NCBI RefSeq assembly: GCF_002234675.1
Contig: NC_019864.2
Span: 16,633,582-16,697,581 of the forward strand
Length of the DNA stretch: 64,000 nt
Direction of reading: 5' to 3'
Source: Oryzias latipes
Lineage: Eukaryota; Chordata; Actinopteri; Beloniformes; Adrianichthyidae
The notes beneath the pieces are model-generated. The model was not told where the DNA came from. It worked only from the letters and a program-made list of their open reading frames with translations, and did no database searches. Positions 1 to 49,500 of the stretch are shown here, one piece after another. A program made the translations under genes and the position numbers. Each line of letters opens with the position of its first letter. The first letter of the stretch is position 1.

Positions 1-934
1 TTAATAAATCTAAGGTGTAAACTGACCAAAAATGTCCTTGTGTGCATTAAAATAAGGTATCAAATATCAGAATAACAGGAACTTTTTTTGCTAAAGCAAA
101 AGTTGAATTCCTCTCATCTAGAATAAGGGACAGACAATGATGCCAAGGACGAAAAGAATGCTTGTGACCACAAAAATGATGTAAAGCAGGACCAAGCTGG
201 CACCCAAAGCTTTATTCATCTTCCACTTGCAGGATATAATGGAGACGATGGCCAAGACGAGCATGAGGACGAGTAGCATCATGCTGCAAAAGATCCCTTT
301 GGAGCTGACACCTGCAGGAGCAAAACCGTGGCTCAAGGAGTACAGCAGCATTGGCAGCGGGAGACTTCAGGAATGAACAAACAAAAAAGAGGAAATGTTG
401 GAGGTTTCACGTTTATGTCCTCCGGTGCTTTTTGTTTTAGAAGTTCAGCGAACGCTCACCTCACAGTCATGCTGAAGATGCTACTGCCTATACTGCTGGA
501 TACAGCCATGTTCCCCAGGCCTTTGCGAGTCACAATTACACTGGTAATAAGGTCAGGGCTGCATATAATCAAGATCAAAATCCCCATAAATTGCAAGCCT
601 TCTGCAGTTTCTCCAATCTACAAAAAGGAACCAGTTTTCAGTTCAACTTTAAATTATAGGATTCAGTATTTTTTTTGTGACAGACTTTGTTGCAAGAAAT
701 ATCTAACCTGATAGGTCCACCAATGTGTGAAATAGGAGAAAACACAAATCCAAATAATGGAAACCAGGAAGGTCACCGCATCTTCTATATTTCTTTAAAA
801 GAATCACAGGAACATGCCAATAAAAGCCCAAAATTGCACTTTGAGGACAGTTCACATGCAAGTCTTACCCGGGTTCGGACATCGGGAATGGTGAGCCACA
901 GTGGCAGCTTGATCTGCAACAGGAAGAGGTAGAT

Positions 935-974
935 GGCCCGCTTACACCGGGTGTCCACCCGGTGTAAGCGGGCC
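935..974. repeat. Perfect 19-bp inverted repeat with 2-nt loop at LINE 5' junction
   Basis: Bases 935-953 (host slc24a1 exon 2) are the exact reverse complement of 956-974, separated by TC. The right arm is not part of the L2 consensus reading frame. It is an inverted copy of the adjacent host exon, so the peptide RCKRA is encoded on both strands here. The L2 sequence proper begins at 975. Confidence 0.9.
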
Positions 975-2676
975 AGACTCCTGAAGGAGGTCTTTGATAC
1001 CATTGGCCCCTGGATAGTTGGTCTCCTTAACTCCTCTCTTGTCTCGGGGTGTGTGCCAGCTGCTTTTAAACATGCTGTTGTGCACCCCCTTTTGAAAAAG
1101 CACAACTTGGATCCCAATGTTCTATCAAACTTTAGGCCGATCTCCAAGTTGTCTTTTCTTTCAAAAATTTTAGAGAAGGTGGTTTATCTACAACTGCAGG
1201 AGCATCTAACAAATTATGATATCTTCGAGAAGTTTCAGTCAGGTTTTAAATCCTGCCACAGCACTGAAACGGCTCTCCTCAGGGTGTGTAACGACCTGCT
1301 TCTAGCTGCTGATTCTGGGGCCTCCACTGTTTTAATTCTTTTAGATCTCTCTGCTGCTTTCGACACAGTGGATCACAGTGTTTTATTATCCCGACTGGAG
1401 CACTCTGTCGGTGTGAAGGGCACAGCACTCAGTTGGTTCAGTTCATATTTATGTGGCAGGAGTTTTTCTGTCCAACTAGGACAGTGCTCTTCTTCAGAGG
1501 CTCCGCTCAAATATGGTGTACCCCAGGGCTCAGTTTTAGGCCCACTTTTATTCTCACTTTATCTGCTGCCACTGGGGTCCATTTTTAGGAAATATAACGT
1601 GTCATTCCACTGCTACGCAGATGACATCCAGATCTATCTTCCCCTAAAATCTGGAGGAGCGGATGTTCTCGACAGATTGCAGAACTGCTTAGCAGACATC
1701 AAGTCTTGGATGGAGCTTAACTTCCTCTGTCTAAATGAAAACAAGACAGAGGTGTTTGTCTTTGGAAAGACTGACCTGCTGACAGGCTGCTGTAGTGCTG
1801 TTGGCCCCCTGGACCCTTCAGATGCTCCATTCATTAGAGATCTTGGGGTAAACCTTGACAGACATTTTAAATTTGACAGGCAGGTCAGTGTTGTAGTCCA
1901 GTCTAGTTTTTATCACTTGAGGCTAATTAGCAAAGTCAAGCCATATCTTCCTCCTCACGCTTTGCAACAAGTGATTCATGCTTTGATCTTTTCCAGACTG
2001 GACTACTGTAACTCTCTGTACAGTGGTATAGATCAGTCTCTGCTCCGCCGCCTCCAGCTGGTTCAAAATTCAGCGGCCCGCCTGTTAACGGGGACCAGAC
2101 GGTGTGAGCATATAACACCGATATTACGCTCACTTCATTGGCTGCCTGTGTCTTTTAGAATTACTTTTAAGATTTTGCTTTTGGTTTTTAAATGTCTGAA
2201 TGGTCTGGCACCTCAGTATCTTTCTGAGCTTCTGCATGTTTATCGTCCTTGTCGAGTCCTTAGGTCTGAAGATCAAATGCTTTTAGCGGTTCCCAGGACT
2301 CGGCTTGTGACTCGGGGAGACAGAGCCTTTTCAGTTGCAGGTCCTAAACTCTGGAATGCTCTCCCTTTTTCTGTGAGGTCTGCCAGAACTGTCAGTAATT
2401 TTAAGACTCTTTTAAAAACACATCTTTTTACTCAGGCTTTTAACTCCAGTGAGCATATCTAGTGGGCCAGCTTGTTCATTGTTCATTTTATTAATCTTAT
2501 TCTTTTATTGTTTTATTGCTTTAATTGTTCAATTGATTTTATTGTTTTATTCCTATTGTTTCTTTATTGCATCGTATTGTTTGTGATTTTAGTTGATTTT
2601 ATGTTAAGCACTTTGGTTGCCTTGGCTTTTATAAGTGCTATACAAATAATAAATTGATTGATTGATTGATTGATTG
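956..2676 (+). mobile_element. 5'-truncated L2-clade LINE inserted in slc24a1 exon 2
   Basis: The insert ends in six ATTG units (2653-2676), the typical microsatellite tail of L2 elements, preceded by an L2-like 3' end (AAGCACTTTG...AAGTGCTATACAA). A 5-bp duplication GTGTC is present at 951-955 and 2676-2680. Removing the insert joins SLQWSDT to RCKRAIYLFLL, the continuous NCKX1 sequence, so the insertion is in coding sequence and not in an intron. The endonuclease domain and 5' part are missing. The reverse transcriptase frame is still open, suggesting a young copy. It lies antisense to slc24a1. Confidence 0.9.
975..2462 (+). CDS. L2 reverse transcriptase fragment (retrotransposon ORF2, partial)
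   Basis: About 495 codons with no stop. Reverse transcriptase motifs in order: NFRPIS, LLDLSAAFDTVDH (first catalytic Asp), GVPQGSVLGPLLFSLYL, CYADDIQIY (YADD catalytic pair), then a LGVNLD block, the thumb region, and the C-terminal RLWNALP-like block (here KLWNALPFSVR) common to L2/Jockey-type elements. The N-terminal endonuclease is absent. The open frame extends back to 933, but 933-974 is host exon plus its inverted copy, so the apparent start codon is accidental. It is unlikely to be expressed as a functional protein without its own 5' promoter. Confidence 0.88.
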   Translation, partial: RLLKEVFDTIGPWIVGLLNSSLVSGCVPAAFKHAVVHPLLKKHNLDPNVLSNFRPISKLSFLSKILEKVVYLQLQEHLTNYDIFEKFQSGFKSCHSTETALLRVCNDLLLAADSGASTVLILLDLSAAFDTVDHSVLLSRLEHSVGVKGTALSWFSSYLCGRSFSVQLGQCSSSEAPLKYGVPQGSVLGPLLFSLYLLPLGSIFRKYNVSFHCYADDIQIYLPLKSGGADVLDRLQNCLADIKSWMELNFLCLNENKTEVFVFGKTDLLTGCCSAVGPLDPSDAPFIRDLGVNLDRHFKFDRQVSVVVQSSFYHLRLISKVKPYLPPHALQQVIHALIFSRLDYCNSLYSGIDQSLLRRLQLVQNSAARLLTGTRRCEHITPILRSLHWLPVSFRITFKILLLVFKCLNGLAPQYLSELLHVYRPCRVLRSEDQMLLAVPRTRLVTRGDRAFSVAGPKLWNALPFSVRSARTVSNFKTLLKTHLFTQAFNSSEHI

Positions 2677-3510
2677 TGTCAGACCACTGCAAGGAGCGGG
2701 ATGCTTCTGGACCATCTTCTCCCAGAAGCACATCTGCATTTACCTAAAAGAGAATCAAAATCCAATAAAATTGTCAACGCTATAAAGACACCTTTACAAT
2801 CTTCAAAGAAACTGATCATACCCTAAAGATTTTACTCTTTTCTTTTACTTTTTTTTTATCTTACATGTTTACTGTGCAAAAAGAGAATTATTCAAATCAA
2901 TATTAGTCTGAAGTGCTAAAATTCTCTTAGTATTTGTGAGGTTTTCAATTGTACATTGTATCTTGAAATTGAGGTTATAAAACATGCCAGCAAGGTGAGG
3001 TAACAGCAGCTTTAGTCCAAAAACTTTCATCTATTTTGGATTTGTATCACAGGTTTGATTTACAATTCAAATAAACATGGATTTTTTTTTATTTTAAATC
3101 CAATTTTGGTCGACAATGCTAAAGTTTTTAGGTCACACAGATTGTATTTTAATCAATAAAAGTAGGAAATCATAGTTAAGACAAAGAGAAAAGCCTTTTT
3201 TTTCCTGAAAAGGTTGAACTACTTAAACGTGTCATTCTGTAATAACATGACATTATTGTATAATATTGTTCTTTTTTTTTTTACTTTAGAAAATACTGTA
3301 CCTTTTCTTTATAGTGATTTTTGACATTTTTACTGCCTTTCATTGTGTTTGTATTAATATTGGAACTTAAAAATAGTCAGTTTGTTTTTCCGTTTGTTTT
3401 ATGTTGATTTGCTATATAAATATAACAAAAATTTGATTTTCACTTTGTTTACAGACATTTCATGTGTGCATTTACAAGTCTATTAATTCTTTATTAAAAT
3501 GTCCTTAAAA
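2677..3510. other. slc24a1 intron 1, 3' part, and half of exon 2
   Basis: Bases 2681-2743 are the 5' half of slc24a1 exon 2 (minus strand, after a TTTTAG acceptor), encoding VNADVLLGEDGPEASRSLQW and the start of the split motif. The large acidic loop found in mammalian NCKX1 is absent or very short here. The rest is AT-rich intron in which I see nothing else. Confidence 0.6.
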
Positions 3511-3885
3511 ACCTGAGACCCACTTTCATGAAAAATGTTGTTGGTGTTTTTAAAATGTTCTTGTAGCATTTTTCTGATGGAGGACAAATTCAAAGAAATT
3601 AAGCTCACAATTGCATTTCTTAGTATTTCTTTATTTAAATTATTTTAAAACAGGAGCAGATGTAAAAATGCAGTTAAAAAAAATACTGGGCGGGGCCACA
3701 AGCTCCCTGATCAACGCCAGTGGTCCTGCCCAAAACGCAAGTGGCAAACTTCTAATGAGCAACTGCCGCTCTGCAGAAACTATGTCCAAGAATAACACAG
3801 ATTTCTGATTTTGGCTAATCAGAATTAACGACCACTGGGAATGCTTTGAAAATAGATCAAAAGATGATCAGAGAGGGTATTTAAA
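3511..3885. mobile_element. Non-autonomous DNA transposon family R1, copy A (partial)
   Basis: The sequence matches the copies at 15978-16515 and 58978-60270: shared blocks are GACCCACT...GTTTTTAAAATGTTC, TGATGGAGGA, CATTTCTTTATTCAAATTG-like, GGGCGGGGC, CTGCCGCTCTGCAGAAAC, TATGTC and AATAGATCAAAAGATG. It lies in slc24a1 intron 1. The middle is deleted relative to copy B. A 65-codon open frame here is a by-product. Confidence 0.7.
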
Positions 3886-4009
3886 AATGCTAGAAACACA
3901 CTTCTGCTGATGACAGAACTGCAGTAGTATTTTTCTTCTTTTTCATTCTGTTCTTTCTTTGTTGTCCTCCCATAATTTCAATTCATCCTTTTTTTTTTAA
4001 CCCGTTTTA

Positions 4010-4620
4010 CCCCTTTCTGAGTCACAGGACTGCCAGAGCCTAACCCAGCTACTGTTGTGGGCAGGTCGGGCAAACCATAGACCAGTCACCAGGCAGGCTG
4101 TTGCAGGGCCACACAATCACACACACTCACAGTCACTCCTAGACACAACAATAATAATAATAATAATAATAATGGATGCTCAAAGCGCTTACAAGGTGTT
4201 CATTATTCATTCACACTTGGTGATGGTCACTACTGATGTAGTCACAGCTGCCCTGGGGCAGACTGACAGAGGTATGGCTGCCAGTACGCACCTACGGCAC
4301 CTCTGACCATCACCGGGACATTCCTGCACAAGGAGGGGGAAGTGCCTTGCCCAACGACACAGCAACAGTTGGCTGGGGGAACAGGGATCAAACAGCCGAC
4401 CCTTCGATCTTTGGGCGACCTGCTCAACCGCCTGAGACCATGGATGTAGAGTCATCAATCAACCAATGAAGCATGTTTTTGGACTGTTGGAGGAACCTAG
4501 AGTCCCTGGAGACAGCCCCCGCATGCACTGGAAGAACACGCAAACTCCACACAGAAAGGTCTGGACCAGACTGGACCAGGCAAGAGGCAAGAGCGCTGAC
4601 CACTGAGCCCCCATGCACCA
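4010..4620. repeat. Old dispersed fish repeat, split by a SINE
   Basis: The outer parts (about 4010-4147 and 4448-4620) carry AGAGCCTAACCCAGCTACTG, TTGCAGGGCCACACAATCAC and GCATGTTTTTGGACTGT...AGAACACGCAAACTCCACAC. These are segments of a repeat widely spread in fish genomes. The two halves read as one element once the internal SINE is removed. A related fragment (CCATCCATTTTCAGAACCCG) lies at about 8892-8945 in ints14 intron 2. Confidence 0.6.
4148..4447 (-). mobile_element. tRNA-derived SINE with (ATT)n tail
   Basis: On the minus strand the head has a box A-like GGCGGTTGAGCAGG and a box B-like GTTTGATCCC (RNA polymerase III promoter elements), then TTGGGCAAGGCACT, and an L2-like tail TTGTAAGCGCTTTGAG followed by (ATT)n at 4149-4172 (read on plus as AAT). 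It shares its layout with the plus-strand SINE at 63165. It is inserted in the older repeat described at 4010-4620. Open frames here are not genes. Confidence 0.75.
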
Positions 4621-4739
4621 GCCCTTCAATTAACGTGTTGGATTATTGTTTGTTCAGCCAGTTCCACACATTTCCCTCTAAAAAAAGATCCTGAGAAATT
4701 TTAAAGAGTTTTGATCATAAATCAATGGGACATTTTAGA

Positions 4740-4962
4740 TTAACCCTTGTGCTATCCTAGGCACTTTACCATTGGGAGTTGGGTCATCTAGACCCACTAG
4801 ACAGTGCGCTGAACCGTTTTTCTTCAATGATTTGTGATCTTCACTGGTGTCCATGGATTACATGAAATTTTTCCACCTTTATCCACCTTTGTCCACTTTT
4901 GTCATGGTAGGAATAACATGTCAATGGAAGGGTGGGGTCATCTAAGATAGCACAAGGGTTAA
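4740..4962. mobile_element. piggyBac-type MITE
   Basis: The element starts and ends in TTAA (4740-4743 and 4959-4962), the piggyBac target site. It has terminal inverted repeats CCCTTGTGCTATC at the left and the reverse complement at the right (GATAGCACAAGGG), and the inner segments GGGTCATCTAGACCC and GGGTGGGGTCATCT are also related. About 220 bp, non-coding. It lies in slc24a1 intron 1, about 40 bp from the exon 1 donor at 5001. Confidence 0.85.
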
Positions 4963-5896
4963 AAGGCACAAAAATCCCTAAAGGGGTGATTCCTGCTCAC
5001 CTTAGGGGAGGCTTCAGCTGAATTGTCTGTCTGAACGGGCTTCAGTTTGCGGAGGATAGACTTGAACACCATCTCTGCCTGAGTGTTAAACTTCATGAAG
5101 GTGACATACAGAATATACCCTGCCACCAGAGCCCCGCTCTCCCACCACCTTATAGCATTGTCCAAGAAAAAGAGCCCGACTAAAATGAGGTAAAGCAGGT
5201 AGAATGACAAGTCCCTGAAAAGTGGCCACCAGCTCAGATGAAGAACTGTCGGAGACAACCCAGCACACATTCCTGTCACAAACACAATTCTGTAAACTCC
5301 TGAAGCGAAGACTCCCCCCAAGCTAACTCTGCTGTCTGTGAAGAAGACTGTTACTAGACTAAAAAGAACACTGGGAAAGGATCTTCCAGCAGCCATGAAG
5401 GTGGCTCCAACTACATCATCAGAGACGGCCAACTTCTCCATAATTAGACCAACGGCAGGAACAAAGAACCCATCACAGATGATTATAAGTGACACAAACA
5501 TGTACATTATACCCATCCCTTTCTGCGCTGTTCAACAGAAAATAAATCTGCAGGGTATCTATTGTAATGTGGAACGTCATCTGGGGAAACTGTGGGAGCG
5601 GTCATAGTACTGGAATCATCCGGCAGCTTTGTGTGAAAGTTCTGGAGGTTTGCATCATGAATGCCTGGAGATGCAGAAGCAGAACTTTTGCCATGTCCAC
5701 CTCGGGTCCTAAGATATGCATGATCTGTGGACTCTGAGTCAAAAGTCATCTCCTCCTCCATCTCTCTTTTGAAGGTTTTGCCAAAATCTCCATCCTGAGT
5801 CTCTGGGAAAAGATAATCCAGCTGGATGCTCATGGTCAGACGGACAAGGGTCCAGAGTAAAACCCCAGACACGATAAACAGACATCTGACCGACAT

Positions 5897-6582
5897 CTTT
5901 TCTGTTCTGAAAACATAAAAAGAAAGGAAAAAAGTATGTTATTAGGTGAATACATGTTTGTAACGGTTTAACAGACTTTATAGTTCAGGCTAAGGGGAAA
6001 TTTGAAAAGAAAATCAAAAGGCACTACTGTCATATTTCTCCTTAAATATGTCAACAACATGATTTTGCCCTCAAATATTCAACCAAGAAAACTCGTTACA
6101 CCATGTAAGATATACAAGCATTAAGTCAAACTTTACATGAAATAAATAAATATAAAACAAGATTCTAAATAATTGAAGAATAAAACTGAGGGACTTACGT
6201 AAACCAGCGCGGAAGTAGAGGTAAAGTTACTGTTTGGAGGATTCCTTTTGTCAAAGCAATGACGTAGGAGGGCGGCATTCAAAATGAGTCGGGGGCGATG
6301 TAGCGCGCTAAACTTGTAATCAACTGAAGAAAAGTTTTGTTTAAACCGGTTCTTTTAGATAGCCTATCTGGTCAGATATCTACGATGAAGTCAGTTTTAA
6401 ACTAAGAACTTCAGTACCGATGAAATATCTATCTAAAAATGTGTCCGGTGAATCAAAAATTGACTGGGAAGCCAACTTCAGCAAAACTCTCTCATCTAAT
6501 TTTCACAACTACAATCAAAACCTAGAAAAAGGCGCTGCTATAGATATATTGTTGTTCCCTGACAAATTTTGTATGTATTTAT
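5897..6582. other. slc24a1 upstream region with probable 5'UTR exon
   Basis: On the minus strand a GTTTTCAG acceptor precedes 5906, and a TTTAC/GTAAGTCC donor ends a likely non-coding exon at 6199, upstream of which the sequence is GC-richer with CG dinucleotides (about 6200-6310), consistent with a promoter. No further genes are seen. The first bases of the hAT target duplication are 6575-6582. Confidence 0.5.
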
Positions 6583-7395
6583 CAGTGACGTGCGGTGAGG
6601 TTAATGGCTGGTGAGGCACTGACGTCATCAGTCAGATTTACAAACATATGAACCATGAGTATAAATAACTGAGTAACTTATTCACCATTTGATTGACAAC
6701 AGTTAACGTTTTGTTTAAAATATAATTTCAACATGTTTTTTTTCATATACAAACTGCAGCATAGAAAAAAGCACAAACGTTATTATCGTCTTACCTTTAG
6801 TTGTAAATAAAGTCCATACGCCGCTCCTTCTGAAGAAAATGACTTGCCGCTTGCTATCACTTCTTCTAGTATTTTTAGCGTCATAATCTCAGGGCTCACC
6901 GGCGCCCCCTAACATGAGGCACGAGAACTGCAACATGAGGCACGAGAATGTCTGGCCTCACCCAGCGGCTTTTTCGCCGTCGTTTAGCGCTCAGCACAAG
7001 AAACACGTCCCTCACATACAGTTATTTATAAAAACAAGCACTGTGCATCATATACATCTGCTAAATTATTTAAACTCAGCTCATATAGTACAAGTGATTG
7101 AACCGACATACAGAGAGACAGCAGTACCGTCTGACTGCATAGGTATTGCGCAATCCAAGGTGAGGCTCAGCGGGCTGGTGCCTCATCGCAGGTCACTTAG
7201 TATCTGAACGGCAAATGCGGGAATTCAGCGATTTTGAAAAGAAAAAACACCCAAAAATGGTACATTTAAATGGAAAATGACCGCAAAGCACAACTTACTG
7301 ATTAAATATAATAATTGAATTTATTTTTTCTCTTTTCTTCCCATAATGACAGGTGAGGCTGTGCCTCACCTGCCTCTCCTGACTGCACGTCACTG
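6583..7395. mobile_element. Non-autonomous hAT transposon
   Basis: Perfect 8-bp target duplication GTATTTAT at 6575-6582 and 7396-7403. Terminal inverted repeats start CAGTGACGTGC at the left; the right end reads GCACGTCACTG, and the similarity continues inward (GGTGAGGCAC blocks). The length, 813 bp, has no transposase frame. An internal 17-bp unit AACATGAGGCACGAGAA occurs twice at 6911-6927 and 6932-6948. It sits between the divergent slc24a1 and ints14 genes. Confidence 0.92.
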
Positions 7396-7403
7396 GTATT
7401 TAT

Positions 7404-7821
7404 ATTTAAAGTCTAAAATATTACTGGTCGCATGTAGGAACTATTTGTTGACTGCGACGTTCTACTCGGAAGGATAACTTCGATGCACATTCTAAAACAA
7501 CATCGCCCATAGCAAGACAAACCACTGTTCTCGCATTTGAATTATGGTTTGTTTATATTCGTCTTTAACTTTAGTAGTCGTCTAAAATGCTATAATGATT
7601 AATATGTGTTATTTTGAAAAATCTAGTTTTTTTTTTTTTTTTTTTCAAAGTCGAACTGAATGTTGACTGACTAGCTTAGAGACTAACTAGCCGTCCTGTA
7701 GCTTGAGCCGGGAATGGACCTCGCTAACTGAGTCTCATTCATTGCAAGCCACATCCTCGTTCTGGCTCAGGTTGACGCATATTGCAGAGTTTGTAAAGGG
7801 GGTCTGGACTGGGATTGAGCC
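7404..7821. promoter_or_regulatory. Presumed ints14 promoter/5'UTR region
   Basis: This 418-bp stretch lies between the hAT element and the ints14 start codon. It includes a T17-19 tract near 7626-7645 and a moderately GC-rich 3' part. No TATA box is evident. Assignment rests on position only. Confidence 0.35.
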
Positions 7822-10800
7822 ATGCCTACTGTTGTGTTGATGGACGTGTCTCTGTCCATGACCCGGCCCGTGTCGCTCGATGGCAGCGAGGAGTTTCAGA
7901 GAAAGAACCTGGCCGTCCACGGACTTAACATGCTGTTTGAACACATGGCCTCGAACTACCGACTTGAATTCACAGCATTGATGGCCTTTTCGTCTCTCTG
8001 GGAGCTGTTGGTGCCTTTCACGAGGGATTACAATGCTCTGCAGGTAAAGCCAAACACAATGGCCGGCGTCCTGTCCTCTGTCTCTCTGTGTTGACATTAT
8101 TATTTTGACTTTTGGAAAGCCGGATTCGTGTTTCATTTTCATTATTTTACTTCGCAGGAGGCACTTAGCAGCCTTGAAGACTATGATAAAACGTGTATCG
8201 AAGCAGCTCTCAATGGAGTCAATAATGTTGTTCAGCAGGAGTGGGGCAGTGGGTGTCCCTGTCAGGTACTGTGGAACTTCAACAAGAAGCTGTTTAAAAA
8301 AAAAAAACCGTTACATTTGTTAAAGAACTTAATCATAACTTTAATGTTTAATTTATCAGATAATGCACTTTACATTCAATTGTAATTATTTAGAGTACAT
8401 ACAAGTTGGAGGTGATTTTTTGACACGGGTTGCTTTAAAAATAGTTATTTTACTTGAAGGAATGAAGTGAAATTTCTCCAATTTAAGGCTAAAATATTAG
8501 GGTTCTTGAAGTTTTAAATTGGATCAGTTCCAGTGAATGTTGCCCCTCTGTCCCAGATGGTTGAGATAACCTAAAGCACTACTGCAAACACGCCATTGAC
8601 TAAAACCTGCTCTTTCACATGATAAAATATAGCATTTCGCATTTTGCTGAATTGAATCTATTTCAAGGCTTGCACATACTAATACTTGGCAGTGGACAAA
8701 CTAAAAACATACCTGGGACCTTATTTATAAAGACCACCATGAACAGAAAAGTTGCATAGACATGACTCATCCAGACAGACATGATAACACATTTGATGTT
8801 TGTTTGTTTTTTGACACCACTAGGTTCATTGTTAACTTGCGTTATAGAAGGAGAATAAATAGTAATTTTTCTAATGTTTTATAATCCAATAGATCCATCC
8901 ATTTTCAGAACCCGCCAAATCCCATTTGAGGTCACGGGTAATCCAATTGAATTTATTATAGTTACAAGCCCAGGGGGCTGAGAGCTAAAGGTGTAGATGC
9001 ACAGTAAAAGAGCAGCAGTGAATGAACAAAAATACACTGTTCCATGTTTCAATGTGGTTTCCTCATTATGTCATACCCCAAAACAGTTTACTAACTTTTT
9101 AAGATTAAATTGACAAAAGTATCTGTGCCTAGAACTGTGTCACTGGGGCTGAAAGTGCACTGGCTGCTCCGCTTCATTTCTGTGGATAAATGAGAGTAGA
9201 CTGTAGAACTTGAAGCCCGTTTGGTTATTTTAGTATTGGTGTATATAAAGTTTTTCAAAACGAATGTGTTTTTACCTTCAGAAATGACCTGTTTAGCCAG
9301 TTCTTCATTTTTTACTCTGCCATCACTATCTTCTAATCTCTGTTTATAAAATACATATTTTACAAATACATGTCTTCACTACGTAAAGCACTTTGTGTTA
9401 AATATGTCTGCAAACTTTTTATAAATAAAGTTTAAATGGAATTGTAGATTTCAAGAATCACATGACTTTTCTGTGAACTGCTCATGTTTGTGTACCTCCC
9501 TCTTTCGTCCCATAGGTGGTGCTTGTTACTGATGGATCACTTGGGATTGGAAAGGGCTCTCTGCGCCACTCTCTCCAAACCTTAAAGCATCGTGGAGAAG
9601 ACAAGAAGTTCCCACTTCCTTTCCCTTTCCCTACAAAACTCTACATCCTGTGCATAGCAAATTCAGAAGAGGTAATCCATCACACCTTCTATTGTCTAAT
9701 CTACCTTTAAGACTATCAGTAAAATAGCAGTTGGTGTAAAATCCACTGAAAGGATGAGACCGAACCTCTTGTTATTGACAGCATCAGGAGATAGGTTGAA
9801 ATAATACATTAACAGTTTTGATTTGATTGTATGCATTTATGTCACAATTTTTGTCATGTCACAACTTGGCAAGAACAAAAACCTCAATTCTTTTGTGCAT
9901 ATGCAGTTACAGATGACAGATGCCATGGATAATTTGGAGCATCTCCTTTGCCTCAGTGGAGGAGATGGTCAGATCTTCACCATGGAAGGTCCACTTTGCA
10001 TGAAGAGCGTACAAACTATGTTTGGGTGAGACTACCGCATATACGAGATACTTTTTTTATGTGTACTAAGGAGTGTTTGTTCATAGCACATGTTGTTGTT
10101 TTCCAGGAGGTTGATTGATCACGCATACTCCCCTTTCCACGCGGTTCTGCACTGTGGGAACCTGTCCTCAGATGTTCAGGTGTTCCCTCGTCCTGAGCCG
10201 ATGGTGGTGGATGAAGAAGTGGAGCCCATGCCCCGGGCGGTCAGCACAGGTCCTAAGCCGGCTTCACTATTCATTGGAATCAGTTCCATTTTATTTTAAT
10301 TGCTTTAAACTAATATATGTTTTTGATGTACCCCATTCAGATCTGGAGATTGTGGGTTTCATTGAAATCGCTGACATTTCCAGCCCTCCTGTTATATCAA
10401 GGCACCTTGTGCTTCCTATTGCTGTAAATAAAGGTTTGTTTTGATTTTACACTTTAGTTATTATTTACTGATGAACACAGACGTTAATTTTAAACTTATT
10501 TATCTCTGAATGCTTCTGCTTTTTAAGTTAACAAGCTAAAAGTCTGCACAGCAGCTCGCTTCCTTCTGCTTTTTGCATCGAGACATTAAGATAAAGTCTG
10601 TGGTCGCTGTTACAAATGCAGATGGTTATTGTTTAGGGAACCTTCTTCTGCTGTTAGACAATTTCAGAAAATGCTCACGGTAATAGAATTCTTTGCAGTA
10701 AAAGAAGAGGGACCGACAAGATTCCTCACCACTTGGCCAAAAATGAATAAAAGATGTTTTTGTAAATGTTCTTGCGTTCAGATGTGGATGAAGTCGGTGC

Positions 10801-34383: not shown

Positions 34384-34425
34384 GTCTGGAGCCATATGTG
34401 CGCACCATTATAAAGCTACCACAGG

Positions 34426-37400
34426 ATGAGCAGCTATCCTGTCAAGACCCTCGCTGACCCAACGCTCCAAAACAAGATGCCCTTATTTGACGGACTTTCC
34501 AAAGCAGAATCCGTGCCCGGCCTCCTAAGTAAGCAGTACGGCGGGGCCTATCTTGCTTATGATCCTCGAGGAAAAGACTCCACAGGATTTACTCCTCCCT
34601 GGAGACCAACAAAGACTTCTCCACTGGATGACAGGAGTCCCGTGAGTCACCTCTCCGGCATGGAGGCGAGAAACCACTTGATATACAGACAAGACAGCAC
34701 TTCTCTAGAGGAAGTCCGAGCTCAGCCTTCTTCTGTGAGTCACACCCCAATGAGAAAAGGTTTTATGTTGTATACTAAAAGCCCGGAGATCAGCGCTCCC
34801 ACAGTCGCAACTGTTAGAAAGCAGAAAAGTGAACATTCCCCACCTCAAACACACCTTTACCTGGCAATTCCTAAGCCTGTGTACGGACACAACCCCTGCT
34901 GCAGCGACCTGGGCTGTGTGATGGGACAAAGGTACATGGAGCACCTACCACCAAAGATGCCAAACTCTGTGTATGAGCCCGACTGGATGCAAACCTCTGC
35001 TCACTACGCCGAAAAGACCCACATTCAGAGAAAAGAAGTGCTGCAACAGAGGAGCTTACAGTTTGACAGCAGCACAGAGCCAAAGCGGATACCGGTGCAG
35101 GCGTACAGCCCAAGCGGGCCCAGGACGTTTCCTTCTGTCAGTGAGCCTACCTACAGCAGTTACCCCTGTACCCCACCTCGCACACTGTTTACTTCTTTAA
35201 ACGAGCACAGCCAGCCGTTACACACCATCCCAGGAGGCTACCCCAGCCTGTACGCCCCCCATCCCACATACGAGCATATGACCTCAGACATTTATCAGGA
35301 ACGCTCTCCCGTACCCAAATATGGTCAGTTAGCACAGCGCCCAGTGTTTTACTACGCTCAGGCAAACAGGGAGTTAGAAAACAGGACACTGTGTAAAGAT
35401 GGTGGCAATAAGCAGAGGGATGCCCCCCTCCCTCAAAAACACTCAATCCCTAGCCCTCTGCCTCATTACATAGTGCCTCAATCTTTTCATGCTGAAATTC
35501 CTTTTTCTTGCACTGAAATTCTGCCTAACCATTCCTTCATACGGGGGTACGACTACCCATATTTTGCAGTTCCACGGTTTCACTTGAACTCGAGCCAAAT
35601 GAGAACCCCCTTAGAAAGGTCATCGCCTACCCTGCTTTCGAGTCGCATCAACATTTCCCCACCCAAAGACAAACCTGCCACCACCCTGCACATTGACAGC
35701 TCTGCGCCGCTTGTGCATTCGGACCATGGCAGACCACCCAGCCGTGGAAGCCAACCCGCCATCTCGCCGTCCAGACAGCCTGGCAGGTTTTTTCACCCAC
35801 TCGCCGGTCTGCACCGAGATGCGCCCACTCTTTCGCCGGCTGCTGCGAGCATGGACAGACACCCAGAATCTTCTTCCTGTCGGGCTCAAGTGATGAAACA
35901 GCCGCGAAACCTTGCTGTCTCCCCGGCAGGGTGGATGCTCCAGTCGCCCACCTCTGATGAAACGTACGCAGCTGCGGCTTCGGGCGCAAATGGTCAAAAA
36001 GTCATCCGTTCGCCCACAGTTACGGCAGGAAGTAATCGGTCTGATGCGGAAAATCTCATTGGCAAGCGAGGCCTGAAGAGAAGCATCTCGCACTCCTCTC
36101 CACCTGTCAAAATAAAAGAGGAGGACAGAGATTTATATGAAGTGGAATGCAGCCAGAAACAACAAAAAGTGGAAAAGGAGACTGGGAGCAAAACGGATTC
36201 CCCTCCTATGCCAGTTATTGACAATGTCTTCAGCTTGGCACCTTACCAACTTCATCTGCAGGCGTCAGGGGTGTTATTTCCAGGAAGAGTACCTAAGAGA
36301 GCCACCCAGACGCCTGAGAAACACAAAGACCAAACCAAGCATGACGGCAAAGAAAAGATGCTGGAAGGAGATGATGCTGTCTTAACTTCAGATACTCCAG
36401 ATGCTGCAGCTTTTAAAGTCGAAAAAGGAGACCAGTCCGATTCAGACGCATCTGTGGAGATCTGTAACGACTACAACAAGCAGACGATCAAAAAGGAGCG
36501 CGTGGAGGCGGCTTTATCTGAAAATGGGTCTGTGAAAGAAAAAGCTGAATTTAAAACAAAGTGCTCAACTCCAGGTGAAAATGAGAGTTTAGCCGAACTT
36601 AAACCTGCCGAACCAATTTCACCGGTAGACCCGTCTTCTGACGCAAATGTGGGCAAACATTTAGTGACCGTTCAACCCAAATCTAGCCAATCCCCTCAGA
36701 GCACTGAGAGTAAAGTCGATTTCAGAAACATCCCACCTCATTTTCTAAAACTTTCTACCTACAACATCATTATTCCTGGTGGCAAGCACCGCAGCACAGA
36801 GCTGGAGAAGCTGTCTCCACAGCCGGTGACCGTTCTCTCCCCAAAACCAGACCTGGAGATGCCAGTTCGAAAGCACTTCTTTGAGCTGCACCACTCTCTA
36901 TGCAAGCTAATATCCAAATCTGTGTCTGCCTCTTTAGAGGAGAACCTCAAAAAATGGCTGTTTCAGATGAAAGTCGCTGAAGCTGCATGTCGGACCGATA
37001 AAGTCAAGGTGTCCTCGCTGCTGGGAGTAAAAGCCAGAGAGGCGTGGATTAACGAGGAGATCAAGTCAACTCTGGACAGGGTCCTCGACAGGCTGAGGGA
37101 GTACACATCTCAGGAGCGCTGTCCTTTTCCGCACGTCATGCGGACGGGAGCGGTGTTCCTCCCCATGCTGGTGATGAAGGAGCTGCTCTTCCCTATGGTC
37201 CAGGGCAGCTTCATTGACCAGGTCCTGCAGGAGCACAAGGTGGAGCTGCGGCCCACCACGCTCTCGGAGGAGAAGATCCTAATCCAGCTCCACAAGCGAG
37301 CCTGTTCCTCCAAGCTCAGGAGGCTGATGTCCCTCAAGCACCTGCCCGACGTCTACACAGATGTGGTCAACCTGCTGTATTACACCGACGTCTGCAAATA

Positions 37401-40400
37401 TCTGGGTGAGTGCTTGTTCATCCGTATATGAAGTCATTGCACTTTTGATTGCAATGACTTCATTCTGGATTTATTTAGCGATAGCGCAGAAAACAAAAGT
37501 TCATCCTTAATGACAAAGACGCCAATTTTTAAAAATAATTTCATGAAAGGCTTCTCATATTTAGATGTCCCATAAACATGCACACTTTAGAAAAATCATG
37601 TAAAAATCTGTTTCTAGTTACAGTAGACTGTTGGCAAAAAAGACCACAGTCAGTTTTTTGTGAAGTGGCAACAATTCTTGCAAAAAGAAGTTAAACTGGT
37701 CATATATATTTGAATGCCTAATGTGAAAAACACAAATAACTATTTAAATTAAACACATTTGTAGCATGATATAAAAAATAGTGTTTTAACCCCTTCATGC
37801 CTGGATTTATTTCCAATTACCGTATGTAGAAAAATATTCTGCAGTTTTGTTTTTTTCTGTTCAAGGTGATTCTATTTCTAAATCAAGTGAACTCCTGGAT
37901 CAAATGGTAGGTTGGATATTAGGGACATTTGGCGTCAAGAGGTCAGTGTAGGACATCAGTGGAAAACTGCTGGATCTTTAAATCAGTGTTTGATTTAGGG
38001 GTTTGTTACTTTAAAACTTTGTGTTGGAAAATGTTTTTTTTTTTCATTGTACGGTTATTTTTATTTCCCCTGGAAAATTTTACATTGGCTCAACATCACC
38101 TGGTAAAGCTGGCTTTGTTCATTTTTGGAGTTGTAGATGCAAAGTTAAAGAAAAAACAAGGACTTTAAAAATATTCATCTGCTTTGTTACTCTTAGCACT
38201 GATTGGATTAAAAGAAATAATTGTGACGGTCTGAAGTAAACATGTCGATTTTAAGATTAAAAAGGGAAAGTATCCAGTATTTCTGGAAATCCTTTTGAGT
38301 TGCACATTTGGCAGACTTTTCAAAATAAGAGACAATTTTCTGTAAAATATCTAAAATTATATAAAGGTTTCATAAGAATTTTTCTTCAAAATAAACCCAT
38401 TTATTTTTTTCACAGAATCACCTTCACCTGATGCCCAAAAGACAGTCCAGGTATATTTGTATTTTATGTTGTCCCACAGTTTCCCCACTCTTTTGCTCTT
38501 TTTCTCATTTAGAAAGCAGAAAGCCTTTCTATTTACTCTTCAGGGGAAAACGTAACACAAACTGCATGGTTTGTAGTTTTTTTCTTCTTCTGGGGGCTGA
38601 GTAAGAATTCCTGCATATTCCAGCCAGGAATATGCAGGAAGTGAAGTTTTTCATGAATTGCTGCTGTATAAAATGAGATTTAAAAAAGGCAATTTGAGCT
38701 TTTATTAGCTCACATGTTAATTTTGACTATGTTCACATGTTTTTTTACTTTTTTTAATTTAACATCGTTTTTGGAGAAATGAGATCTGCAAAGTCCACGT
38801 GGCTCTTGATAAACCTCCCATCTTTTCTACTTCTGTATTCCTTTTTAAAATTTTTTTTTGTCAGTTGTGCCATTAGCATAGCCAAATTCTTTTTCCCTAA
38901 AGACAGAGTGATTCTTGTTCTGTATTTGCTCAGATAGTGTGAATCCTGGTGGGAGTATTTAGCATTAACTCAAAGTACAGAACGTGTTTTATCATGACAG
39001 GACATGCACTTTAACCTATTAGGGCAACGACTGCACTGAAGACTAACTTTATTTTGTTGTTCACTCCCCATGTAGCTTTTCTGAATCGGGCTCACTCCAC
39101 TGACATGTGTGTGTTTTATAAAGATTGTTGCGTTGATCATGCCTCACTTCCAGTTGGTTCCTGGTTTGACGGCATGGCTTGTAGCAGTCTTGGTGTTTAC
39201 TCCTACAGCCTTTGCTTCTGTCTAATGGTGGAGGATCGTTCTTTCTAATCTCTAAGCGTCAGTCAGCTGACGGTCTTGTTAACACTTTTAGAGCAATCAT
39301 CAACTAGTCTTCAAAATCACCAAAACTTGATTTTTGAATCAAACATTCTTACTAACCAGTGTTTTAACAATAAATTCAATTTACAAAAAACTTTGTAACA
39401 TTTTTCCTTTTTTCATAAACGATCTGGATTCTTCTGTATCCAACACTGAATACCTGTGAATTTTCCAGCAGGCTTTGTTTTTGACCCCGATGTTCTTGTG
39501 TTGCAGGATTGACTCTTGATCAGAGAGAAGAACATGAAGGTCTCAAAGCATCCATCAGAAGGATCTCTGACGTCACTGCGTCACCAATTTCCCCGCCAGA
39601 GCCACAAGTCGGGGACCAAGGATCAAAATCGCCCATCGGAAGGAGTAGAACAAAAGCCAGAGTTAAGAGCCATTCAAGAAATTTCTTTCTGGACAGCGAG
39701 ATGTCCAATGAGGAAGAAGATGGTACGAAGACAGCTGATGAAGGTGTTCTAAATACACCCACAAAGAAAGAATGTGGGAGTGGCCTCGCCGTTAAAGAGC
39801 AAGACTCTACAATCCTTTCACCCAATACAGCATGTGAAAATTCATGGATGTGTCCCTTAACGCCGGACAACAGGTCTTCCTCCCCTGATGAAGCAAAGAT
39901 GGAGAAAGCGTTGTGCCCGCCAGCGACCTCAAAACTCCAGATTGAATCCAAGAAGTGTTCTGGCATGATTCTCAAACTGAGGAAGATGCTCAGTGCGGGC
40001 GGGAGCCAAAAAAAGCCCCGCTACCAAGCAGTGTCAGGGACCATCTTTGATTCATCCCAGGCGGACAGAGAAGATGCCAGTCTTGACGGGAAACAGCAGA
40101 GGACGCCTAAAGCCTTGCACAGGTGGCGGAAAATGGAGGGTTTCACTCGCGCCTTAAGACCACTAAGCAGCTGTTCTCTGAAAAAGCAACGTTCACTCCT
40201 GAAAATCAAGTACTGCCCCTACTTGTCCACCTGCCACAGCGCCGAACACAGGAGGCGGTGGGTACTGCGCTCAGCTGTGCAGAGAGCACGTGGCGCCATG
40301 AGGCTCTACTATCCAGACTTGGTGGGAAAGAAGATCCACCATCTGTACGAGGAAGATGACAAATCTGAGGTGTGGTACAGAGGAGAGGTGCTGCGGGTCC

Positions 40401-43591: not shown

Positions 43592-46500
43592 TCAATCCTC
43601 AATGTACTCCCACAGGTCCTTCTCATAGCCTTCATGCACATGCTGAAGCAGCACTCTTCGCCTGCTCTCACAGTATCTACAGACAAGAGGCGCATTTTAG
43701 TCCAGGAAACACAAACGTCACCGAGCCACCAAGAAATGCTTTGATTTTCTGCTGACCTGTACTTATCTTGAACTTTTTGCTTGATGTCCTGCAAAGAATC
43801 CTGGGAAATGTCCCGCTCTAGGTAGCCAGACAGCACCTCGGTGGCATTTTCTAGGTCTGCCTGGTTGTTCTAGGAAAGAGAAATTGATTATATGACATTA
43901 TTCTGAATTATTGATAAATCTCAGCATTGAAGGTTCCACAAAAGCCAAAAATGGTTCAAATTATGGTTTAAACCTTTGGATTAGCTCTACTGTCATTGGG
44001 GAAAAAAAACACAAATACAAATGATATAAGGCTGACAGAGTTTCAGAGTGAATGTGAACAGGTATTTTTCATAAGATGTATGAACATCCAACAGAATTTT
44101 AAAAATATTTATCAAAGTGAAAAAGCAGGGATCGATTTTTTTGGTTACCTCAAAAATAATGGACTGGTTGTTCTTCTTGAGGTAGAAGGCAAAGACATAA
44201 GTAAACATGAGCGTGGAGCGGCACTGGCACAGCACATCCACAGCCTTCTTGAGGAACTGCACTTCAATCCAGGACATGTTGTGCTGCTGCATCTCCTCCA
44301 TCTTCTGCTTAACCTGAGCGTAGAGCTTGTGCTCGAAGCGCAGACTCTGCATGTGGTTCATGTAGCGGTTGCAGTAGAACAGGTACCTCTGCAAGGCTGC
44401 CCTGGATCGCTGTGCACACAGAACAGGACTTTAACTTTAGACCCCATTAAACCCTGGCACAAACACAAACACACATTTTAGCCAGCAATGTAAGGGTTCG
44501 GTGTTTGTACAAGGGGAACTTTGAGCAGACAGAGCAAGAACCAAACCGGCAACTCTCCAATCAGAGGTTGACCACCAGTACGAGTGTAGGAGCTGGAATG
44601 TGTGAGAACAGGAGCTCAGAAATATTTTGTTCCTCACAGTCACCGAGAGAATACAATGTATAAATGTAGGGGTGTGCTTTTATACAACAGGCTCTTCTGG
44701 GGCGGTTTCCTTCTACTTCTATCTGTGGGTTTTAAACGTACATTGTCTTCAACTAAAATTTAAAGAGGTCCAACTAGAAAAAAAATTCATGAAGGTAAGG
44801 TCTGGAAAAAAAAAGTAAGTAGCCGAGGATTGGTGGCACATCTGCATGTAATTAATATCAAACTCCCACTTCAAATTAATTCAGTGCAATCTAAAACTTT
44901 GACAGGATTTAATGTCGCACCACACATGGAACTGTTTGGATCCGGGTCTGGACGGCGGTCCGCTAGTTAATGACTCCTAACCTAGAGTCTGTACTGTAAA
45001 GCGAATGCAGGAAGAATAAAAGTCTGGATTCAACTGTCCTCCAAAACACCAGAAATTATTGAGTTTAAATGTGAAAATACAGTAAACATTAAATGTCTGT
45101 GTCCTCTCATAACCAGCAACCTGCACCAAAATGTATGGAGATTTAAATGTCTTATTTGTAGAGTTTGTCTAACTTTACTTAACAAAATCCAAACGTTATT
45201 TTTGTTGCAGAGCAAACAAAAGTTTAGCTCTAAGATTTTTTAAATTATTCTCTCTAATAGAACAAAGTATCTAGTGGTGCCAAAACGTTGAAACTCTAAA
45301 ATAATTCCTGATCATGTAATGTGGTGTTTCCAAAATAAATATAATAATAAATAAAACAATTTGACCACCAGGCCCTGATAGACACGTGAAACATAGCTCA
45401 AACTTTGATGCAAACAATCCTAAATCCAACAAGTTGGCAAAAACCCCTTTGCATAACTTTACAAGAAAAGACTGAGCAAAAACTCCAAAGTTATTCAAAG
45501 TCTGCCCCTGCACTCATGAGAGGAATTTCTGAAAGCAGTCATGAGATCCACCAGTAATAAAACACATCTGACTTTGCAGGAAAAGTGTGTTCTTTCCGGT
45601 AAGACGGCCTCTGGCATAAAGAAGGGATGGTCACAGGTCACTTTAATGAAATGAGCTACATTACTTGGAGTATGTTCAAAACTGTATTTTTATAGCTATA
45701 TTACAATCATTCCACATATTTTTTAAAGGATTTTAAGCAATGAATCCCATGTAGTTTTGACTTGCATTTATACCATAATGGGATATAATTAGAAAAGTAA
45801 TAGGAATTTATGAGGTGAGCATAACTTTTTACCTCTTGAGCATCTCTGGCTGCCTTGGCATCATCCTCATTGTAGCGGTTACAGTTGTACCTAAAATCAA
45901 AAGAAATGCAGAGAATGATTTAAGTAAGAAATAAAAAAATTAAAATAAACAGCTTTTATCATGAGACCATATGCTGAACAAATAAGAACAAGTAATTTCC
46001 AAGTGATTTTGGGATTAAAAAAATAATGCATTCTGTTTGTTTGGTTACTTTTACTTTGAAAAATGAATGCAGTGAGACTTGAAGTTTCTTTTATCCTAAA
46101 CGGTTAAGTTATGATGAAGTGAGAGGAGAAGGCTGGGCACAGCAGCTTTATTTACTCTATGCACAGACAACTTAGGGATCTGATCCTTGCTAAACAACAA
46201 CACATCCTACTGTCATCATCAAGCAGTCATCAAATATACTACAGATGAAAGTGCATTAGTAAATGGCAATGAGTTACCCGGATGGGAATCATGGAAGCAT
46301 GTAACTAAAGCATCATTTCTTACCACGCTGAGCCATGGGGTTCCCATGGTCCCAGACAGACCCAACAGAACTCTGCTTTACAGTTTTGGTTCCGACAAAC
46401 CATGTGATTGCAGCCTCCGTCTTTCTCGATAGTCACATGGCATTTTGGACACTCCTGTAACAAAAAGGTGTTTTCTGTTTTCAAATCGTGTTGGTAAGCA

Positions 46501-49500
46501 GAATATTTCACTGAAAGTTTTACCTTTTCTTTTCTTTCTTTTTTTTTGGTAAATTGAGGCAATAAGAACTCAATAAAAAATAGTTTACATGAAAGACGGC
46601 TGGATTGAGTCCACACTCATCACAGCAGTGAGACATTGACATGGAATTTCCAACCAGGTGACGACATTTCTTTACTCTGGAGCTAAAACAAAGCCTCAAT
46701 GATGATAACTTGTTTTCATTTTGGTATGACTCCCCAACCCTGCAAATGTAGTCCAAGCAAGGAGAAAACAGGAACACTAAACCAATACCTTGGTATTTGC
46801 TGCAATCCAGTTTGAAGTTTCACTGTCATCATCACACTTCTTTATCCATTTTCTCAGCCACTGCAATCACATCACACAAACTGTAAGACGTTCTAGCGAT
46901 ACCTGTCGACCTTCTCTTCAGAGCTAGCATGAGAACATTCATATTTCTTGAAAAACAAGGAAAATGTGGCCATTTCTTTAGACCTACTTTACACTTCACA
47001 GGGTCGTGCCAGTTCTCCCCACAGTTGAAGCTGAAACAGCAGAACCGTTTTCAACTGATTTTAGAAAAAACAACAACAAAATCAACAGAATAAACATTTA
47101 CTAGAAAACTCTTACCAGAACTGACGGCCACATTTGCATCTCACTGGCTTGGCATCTGGGTACTGGACTTTGACAACATGATGGCAGTCTGGTGCAGGAC
47201 ACCACTTTAATAGTCGATTGCACTTTCAGGAGCAAAAGTAGACAGATTTTGTAATATTAGCTTAATGTATTATAACAGCAAAGATGATCTTTTGTCTTTT
47301 TAAAGTTGCATGCACTGATAGTCTTAAAGCATTTCGTGAATTCAGATTTCACCTTAATTTTTCCAAAACAGAGTTGAGCAGAAAACAAAAGACTTACCTC
47401 AACAAAACTATTTGTAATTAAATGCTGGTACTTCAACTTCACTTTTGAATCTGTTATGAGGCGCCTACAAGAAAATGTAAATCAATTGTTAGCCTTAATT
47501 GCTTTAAACTCAGTAGATTATTTTTGAAAAAAAAAACAAAATTGTCATTTAAAACGAACATTAAAAAAACATAACCTACTCATTTTCCAGCTAAGGATGC
47601 AAAGACTGTTTAAATATTTTAAAATTGCAGTAATATTAAAAAAAAACGGATTCAATAATAAATTAATTGTGGGTCTTTCTTTTAAACTGTACCGTTTTTT
47701 TTGCTTCTCACTTGACAAAACAATCCCAGTCAGCTTTCCAGCTCTGATTTTAGACATAATCCACTCTTTATATGATGAACTTCTCTGATGGTTTGGAATT
47801 AAATCCTCACTTTAAATGTCTATAAACATAGTAGTGAGTAAAGGAGATATGCGGAGCAGAAAGTAAGCTGCCTCTGAAAACACTTTTAGGTCTGATGAGA
47901 GACCTACAGACCACAACATTAAGCTCTAAAGCTGGAATCAAGTCATTTTGAAAAACTAAAACATGTTTGTCGCTACAGTAAACATCATCACAGACACTTG
48001 CATTTGATACAAATGGTTTTTATTTAGGTAAATGTAACAGCACAGACTAAAGTAAGACACAACAATATTTTATATAAAAAGTTTTTATTTTTAAATTTAT
48101 ACACAAGATAGATGAACTGGTTATGACAACTAAAACTGTAATTCTACAGTGTTTACTTACACAATGAAATCGGTAGGGCTGGGTTGATAAAATCTATTAA
48201 TCCATCGATCATTGATAATAGATCAACGATCGATCAAAAAAAGTAGAGAGCAATCTTTTATGCCTTTCCTTTTCCGGTGACCTAATGTTAATCTCGTGAG
48301 ATTTTGTCAGATTTGGCGACAGTTTACAAAACACAATCTGAAGGTTTATGGAAAATTACTAATATACTCTGATACATCTACAGTGTAATTGTAACAATCA
48401 CAGCAGTAAAGCCAAAATCTGCTAGCTTGATGCTAAGATATAATGGAATTTCCCATAGCTCGGTTTATGCTAACGTTTGGTCGACCTAAACATACATTGC
48501 TGACTAAATGAACAGCTTTATAGACTCGTAGACATGAATTTTAAGGAAACTGTTTTTTAAAGTAATTCTAATAAATTTTACAGCATGTGAACTGTATCAG
48601 AGTAATATTAATCTCTTGAAAAAGTGTATAGATTATTATTATTGTTTCTTTAAGCAAATATGTCTAAATGTATAAACTGTGTAAATTCAAAATTGAATTG
48701 AATCAATTCAAAAAAATCGTTAATCAAATCGATCCAGGCTCTGGTGAATCCAATCAATTCTAGAAATTATTGGTGACACGCAGTCCTAGAAATCTATAAC
48801 TGGAAATGGTGATCTCTGCTGATCTTTATCGCACAACAAAAACAACACAAGACTGGATGTTAAATATACTTACATGACTGTGTTGTCATCAACCAAAATG
48901 TCACAACTATGAGCAGGACAGGAAATGGTCTGGGAAGAAAACAAAAAAGAAAATGATCAGTCAGATATAAAAAAAATGACTTGACATTCTTTCAGATACC
49001 TAACTGCCTTTGTTTTTTCTGAACAGACAATAGAAACAAAGAAAAAAAAAAAGGTGCGTGGCAGATTAGAATGATTGGAACTCATTTTTATACATTTCTG
49101 CAGCCTGCCATGGGGCCATGACAACATGTTACCAGGAGAACTTCACTAAAAATAAATAAAATACAAAAAAGTTCAGAAGTTAATAAATTAATATAGACTG
49201 CAATGTAGGCCAAAACAACACTCAAGGTATAATAATTGATAGTTTTATAATGCTGTAAACTGCGATATTTGTGCAAATAGTAAACTTAGAAGAAAATACA
49301 CTTAATTTTAACCTATCCTTTCATAATCTAAATATTCTTAAAGAATATGTAAAAACAAAACACCCACCAAATCAACTGCAAATAAGAAACCAGAAGAAAT
49401 ATTTACATATTAGATTATTTTAAAACCATGTAGCAAAACAATAGTACTTTGGTGTTTGGATTAAAAGTAACATTTTAGACTATTACATTATTCTTAAAAT

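Follow-up and report, generated by a model that had tools for sequence, protein, structure and literature searches.

It is clear that the slc24a1-like gene in the window (the whole stretch of DNA analysed, 64,000 nucleotides, C6:16633582-16697581, from a 734-Mb genome assembled as 25 contigs) is dead, as the earlier note said. With a probability of about 0.93 it arose as a tandem duplicate of slc24a1 (NCKX1) and has since decayed, and the case is one of ordinary pseudogenization of a redundant duplicate. The genome does not support the broader claim, an apparent loss of slc24a1 from this fish, given that an intact-looking copy is found on contig C6 and another slc24a1-type gene on contig C3. 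With the intact-looking copy present ~5 kb outside the window, slc24a1 has probably been retained.

The gene occupies positions 118-5896 of the window on the minus strand, and these outer limits, already proposed earlier, agree with the first ATG, at 5896, and with the final stop codon at 118-120. Its parts, with the LINE that interrupts it and the gene next to it, are the following:

5513..5896, minus strand: pseudogene exon 1, N-terminal part, an open frame from the ATG at 5896 through 128 codons to a W, with 28% identity over 169 positions to the intact exon 1
5507..5516, minus strand: site of the 19-bp deletion in exon 1, from alignment with the intact copy, reading TGG GTA TAA with the TAA at 5507-5509
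5001..5513, minus strand: pseudogene exon 1, second part, covering TM and alpha-1 with 171 open codons; a GT donor follows at 4999-5000
2676..2743, minus strand: pseudogene exon 2, portion upstream of the LINE, VNADVLLGEDGPEASRSLQWSD..., from comparison with the intact copy
956..2675, plus strand: LINE inside exon 2, with a PF00078 reverse transcriptase match (1.4e-33)
869..955, minus strand: pseudogene exon 2, portion 3' of the LINE, with a GT donor (867-868)
708..792, minus strand: pseudogene TM exon, its frame shifted by the loss of 5 bp, from alignment with the intact copy
460..617, minus strand: pseudogene alpha-2 exon, lacking 3 bp and 6 bp, from alignment with the intact copy
118..364, minus strand: pseudogene last exon, to the stop at 118-120, with 51% identity over 81 aa to the intact last exon
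7819..8094, plus strand: open frame that contains coding exon 1 of INTS14 (start codon at about 7822), a gene in head-to-head orientation to the pseudogene

The alpha-1 part still matches PF01699 (3.5e-19, 69.7 bits against a cut-off of 24.9), and the window gene is therefore an NCKX relic and not a chance resemblance. Both alpha-repeat halves of the sodium/calcium exchanger domain are present, the second being recognised by identity; the TM and alpha-1 part has 60% identity over 159 aa with the intact copy, and the alpha-2 exon 60% over 55 aa. A search of the PDB with the alpha-1 part returned entries for archaeal NCX_Mj and human NCLX with E values up to 0.01, and none labelled NCKX, while the only matches of the alpha-2 exon, to FocA, were at chance level. 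The AG was kept in 4/4 acceptors and the GT in 4/4 donors of those delimited, which makes this the relic of an intron-bearing gene; an origin as a retrocopy is ruled out by the introns and the kept splice sites. The DNA of window 4990-5900 has four matches in the genome, namely itself, the C6 copy (70%), C3, and C1, with no further copy of the window gene among them. No stray fish copies were found in a scan of viral_contigs.

The tandem copy was located at C6:16621251-16628273, head-to-tail with the window copy and on the same strand, and its start codon lies 5,309 bases beyond the left edge of the window. It was found in a whole-genome search for the PF01699 family (39 matches, with 65/65 candidates scored), which bore out the alternative, raised in the earlier note, that a second slc24a1 copy exists. 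The PF01699 match is stop-free at 16627326-16627751, and has its alpha-2 partner at 16622104-16622322. The exons of this copy, as a sequence model and all on the same strand as the window copy, are:

C6:16627233-16628273: exon 1, 347 codons from the chosen ATG, with a further ATG upstream
C6, ending at 16622593: loop/TM exon
C6:16622427-16622516: TM exon
C6:16622126-16622292: alpha-2 exon
C6:16621251-16621499: last exon

This copy has an open frame in all the exons recognised, the search for loop exons between 16623172 and 16627233 having been non-exhaustive, and contains the motifs GSAPELFTS, AAGTSIPDL, and GSNIFDI. It resembles the window copy in strand and exon layout and is its best tree partner, but differs from it in that all identified exons are open, and in its acidic loop, none being found in the window copy by protein search. 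The window gene thus has what is expected of a pseudogene that arose by local duplication: retained introns and an intact parent close by on the same strand.

The second slc24a1-type gene, on C3, has its exon 1 from 1526782, its alpha-2 exon at 1499029-1499196, and its last exon from 1498312. Exon 1 of this gene is interrupted by a run of exactly 5000 N (C3:1521059-1526058). Since the 50 kb surrounding the C3 gene gave no match to two INTS14 exon peptides, INTS14 lends no support to a descent of this gene by genome duplication. The presence of these two genes bears directly on the headline of the earlier note, by which slc24a1 itself would be gone and rods would be served by another NCKX. The window copy is clearly broken, and it is the one adjoining INTS14, as that explanation would have it; nonetheless, an intact-looking tandem copy on C6 and the C3 gene, both with slc24a1-like N-terminal regions, contradict it already at the level of the assembly and make it very improbable.

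Every lesion of the window copy was judged against the neighbouring intact copy, and those that had been noticed before were recovered. The exon 1 frameshift near 5507-5516 corresponds to 19 bp absent at about 5508-5516; the upstream frame ends in W-V-TAA, and the TM part resumes in a different frame. The exon 2 and exon 3 phases had been said not to join; the TM exon is out of frame with its neighbours because 5 bp are missing from it. Exon 2 is split by the LINE. With these two deletions and the insertion, no open reading frame runs across all coding exons of the window copy. The alpha-1 repeat is altered (AAGRSFPSVLFSL in the window copy versus AAGGSAPELFTSL in the intact copy), the change of GSAPELFTSL to RSFPSVLFSL having come about through substitution alone, with no indel. 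In the alpha-2 repeat, 3 and 6 bp are absent, so that TILAAGTSIPD aligns to LILI--ICSPD, and the Asn and Asp of GSNIFDI are lost, the window copy having GSSIFSM.

The cysteine scan of human NCKX2, in the portion of the source available (PMC12150658), gives 12 substitutions without measurable transport. When these positions were mapped with E188 and D548 as anchors, 12/12 letters agreed with the NCKX gene on C18. The C6, C18, and C1 genes keep 12/12 of these residues, the C3 gene keeps 11, with one within the N run, and the window copy keeps 7/12, having lost five (G184R, E188S, G204S, G210A, and S545C). N572 and D575 are likewise replaced in the window copy. The latter residue is said, after work by Kang in 2005, to govern K+ dependence. 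Named ion-path sites are replaced in 9/17 cases versus 72/237 for other invariant columns; given a Fisher p of 0.063, and that the other invariant columns are often replaced too, there is no clear targeting of transport sites.

The LINE has GTGTC on both sides (951-955 and 2676-2680). At its 5' junction, 20 bp (956-975) repeat the adjacent target (934-953) exactly in inverted orientation, suggestive of a fold-back of the target strand in the course of insertion. At least 45 matches to this LINE were counted in the genome. Among the matches listed, four other copies are 99.53-99.82% identical over about 1.7 kb, and the family appears to have been active recently. These four align only from window 973 onward, and 956-972 is therefore not LINE sequence. 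The insertion appears to be very young, younger still than the end of constraint on the window copy. That the deletions and the LINE are sequencing or joining errors in a functional gene has hardly any probability, given the matching GTGTC flanks of the LINE and the inverted target copy at its 5' junction, the 19- and 5-bp gaps, which by eye are not homopolymer slips, and the transport residues replaced via substitution where the frame is intact.

The origin of the duplicate was explored by identity and by comparison of trees. Over the codons aligned, the window copy shares 59.4% identity with the C6 gene (360 codons), 57.2% with the C3 gene (306), 53.5% with the C18 gene (359), and 52.8% with the C1 gene (305), while the C6 and C3 genes are 84.9% identical to each other (311). 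The C18 and C1 genes look NCKX2-type, a label that we assume from the family. The tree with the window copy as sister to the C6 gene is the best in 3/3 models, with AU values of 0.904 for protein, 0.998 for DNA, and 0.959 for codons. With C3 as the sister of the window copy, or with the window copy branching outside C6 and C3, the AU values are 0.107 and 0.108 for protein, 0.0526 and 0.0591 for codons, and 0.0019 and 0.0018 for DNA, respectively; these two alternatives are excluded by the DNA model, but not by the protein model, nor by the codon model at 5%. A local duplication after the split of C6 and C3 is favoured on these trees but not proven, and the duplication could predate that split because the protein and codon tests keep the C3 alternatives. 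An origin from either NCKX2-type gene was rejected in all three models (AU 0.0012 or less).

The dN/dS on the remaining exons, fitted with a branch model, gives an omega of 0.385 for the window copy versus 0.0375 elsewhere, values that are rough because synonymous sites are saturated. A window-branch omega of 1 is rejected (p = 0.0057), as is a single omega (p = 1.3e-10). When the window copy is read piece by piece, there are no stops in 504 codons, where 16.2 would be expected had it always been neutral (p about 1e-7). The copy thus appears to have retained its reading frame over most of its existence, and its death would be fairly recent. From the zero stops, the 95% upper bound on the neutral phase is about 0.060 substitutions per site; if rates between 2.5e-9 and 7e-9 per site and year are assumed, this corresponds to about 24 to 9 million years. 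Even at this upper bound, the replacement of at least 5/12 essential residues has p = 0.012 and that of at least 9/17 named ion-path sites p = 7.9e-5, and some transport chemistry was therefore probably lost before the frame. A bolder reading is that the duplicate, while its frame was still open, long existed as a translated, non-transporting NCKX1-like protein, or pseudo-exchanger. This we hold to be rather unlikely, and a general weakening of constraint explains the replacement data equally well.

The 504 stop-free codons, the kept donors and acceptors (4/4 each), and the constraint over most of the window-copy branch could also suggest that the window copy still yields a useful non-transporting protein or RNA, such as an exon 1 fragment. 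However, the frame stops at 5507-5509, ahead of the first alpha repeat, and the second half is broken by another frameshift and the LINE; the past constraint follows from a recent death and needs no residual product, which leaves this explanation with scarcely a chance. Decay of a tandem duplicate of slc24a1 remains the reading that is preferred here.

The neighbours had been described as intact. For INTS14 the identity was confirmed, over its first two exon peptides only, by a match to human INTS14 (PDB 6sn1, E 2.7e-56). Between the pseudogene and INTS14, at window 6583-7395 (about 813 bp), an element has the inverted 11-mer CAGTGACGTGC at both ends and GTATTTAT flanking each side. We take it to be likely a DNA transposon of the hAT type, a type assumed from the 8-bp target copies. 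Further along, a 1005-codon frame on the plus strand (34414-37428) matches PF17663 (DUF5525), and an exon on the minus strand (46323-46616) has IBR domain matches; these are presumably C15orf39 and ARIH1, respectively.

Compared with SLC24A1 (NCKX1), the rod outer-segment Na+/Ca2+-K+ exchanger, the window copy shares exon pieces, both alpha repeats, and the INTS14-side position, but unlike the functional gene it is frameshifted at two sites, carries a LINE within one coding exon, and has 5/12 essential residues replaced. In photoreceptors, NCKX1 is found in rods and NCKX2 in cones, and the nckx1 of striped bass has been reported in rods, according to the excerpts available of PMC6170504 and PMC8370914. 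SLC24A1 has been inactivated in the marsupial mole, golden moles, and the numbat; as far as the available excerpts of that work go (PMC10671557), these mammalian pseudogenes have small frameshifting deletions, as the window copy does, but the lost gene is treated there as a single SLC24A1, whereas in medaka an intact duplicate is left. NCKX2 was described as not alignable in freshwater medaka in the accessible portion of PMC4352242, a finding that does not bear on the present locus. No report of a fish slc24a1 that is duplicated in tandem or pseudogenized was found in the literature searched, as far as the text available for those sources goes.

Taken together, the history of this locus would have begun long ago with the local duplication of an slc24a1 gene, after which the INTS14-side copy may have remained protein-coding under weaker constraint. 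Its transport residues would have been lost next and its frame afterwards, via two small deletions, with the insertion of the very young LINE as the last step. Rod calcium extrusion would then depend on the intact C6 copy, with a possible contribution from the C3 copy.

What would have been a claim of vision gene loss is thereby corrected: a gene apparently lost within the window has an intact neighbour beyond its edge. Should the pseudo-exchanger reading be true, a duplicate of a photoreceptor transporter would have been kept without its transport chemistry. Relatives of this fish might still have such a protein intact, and related fishes could provide the test.
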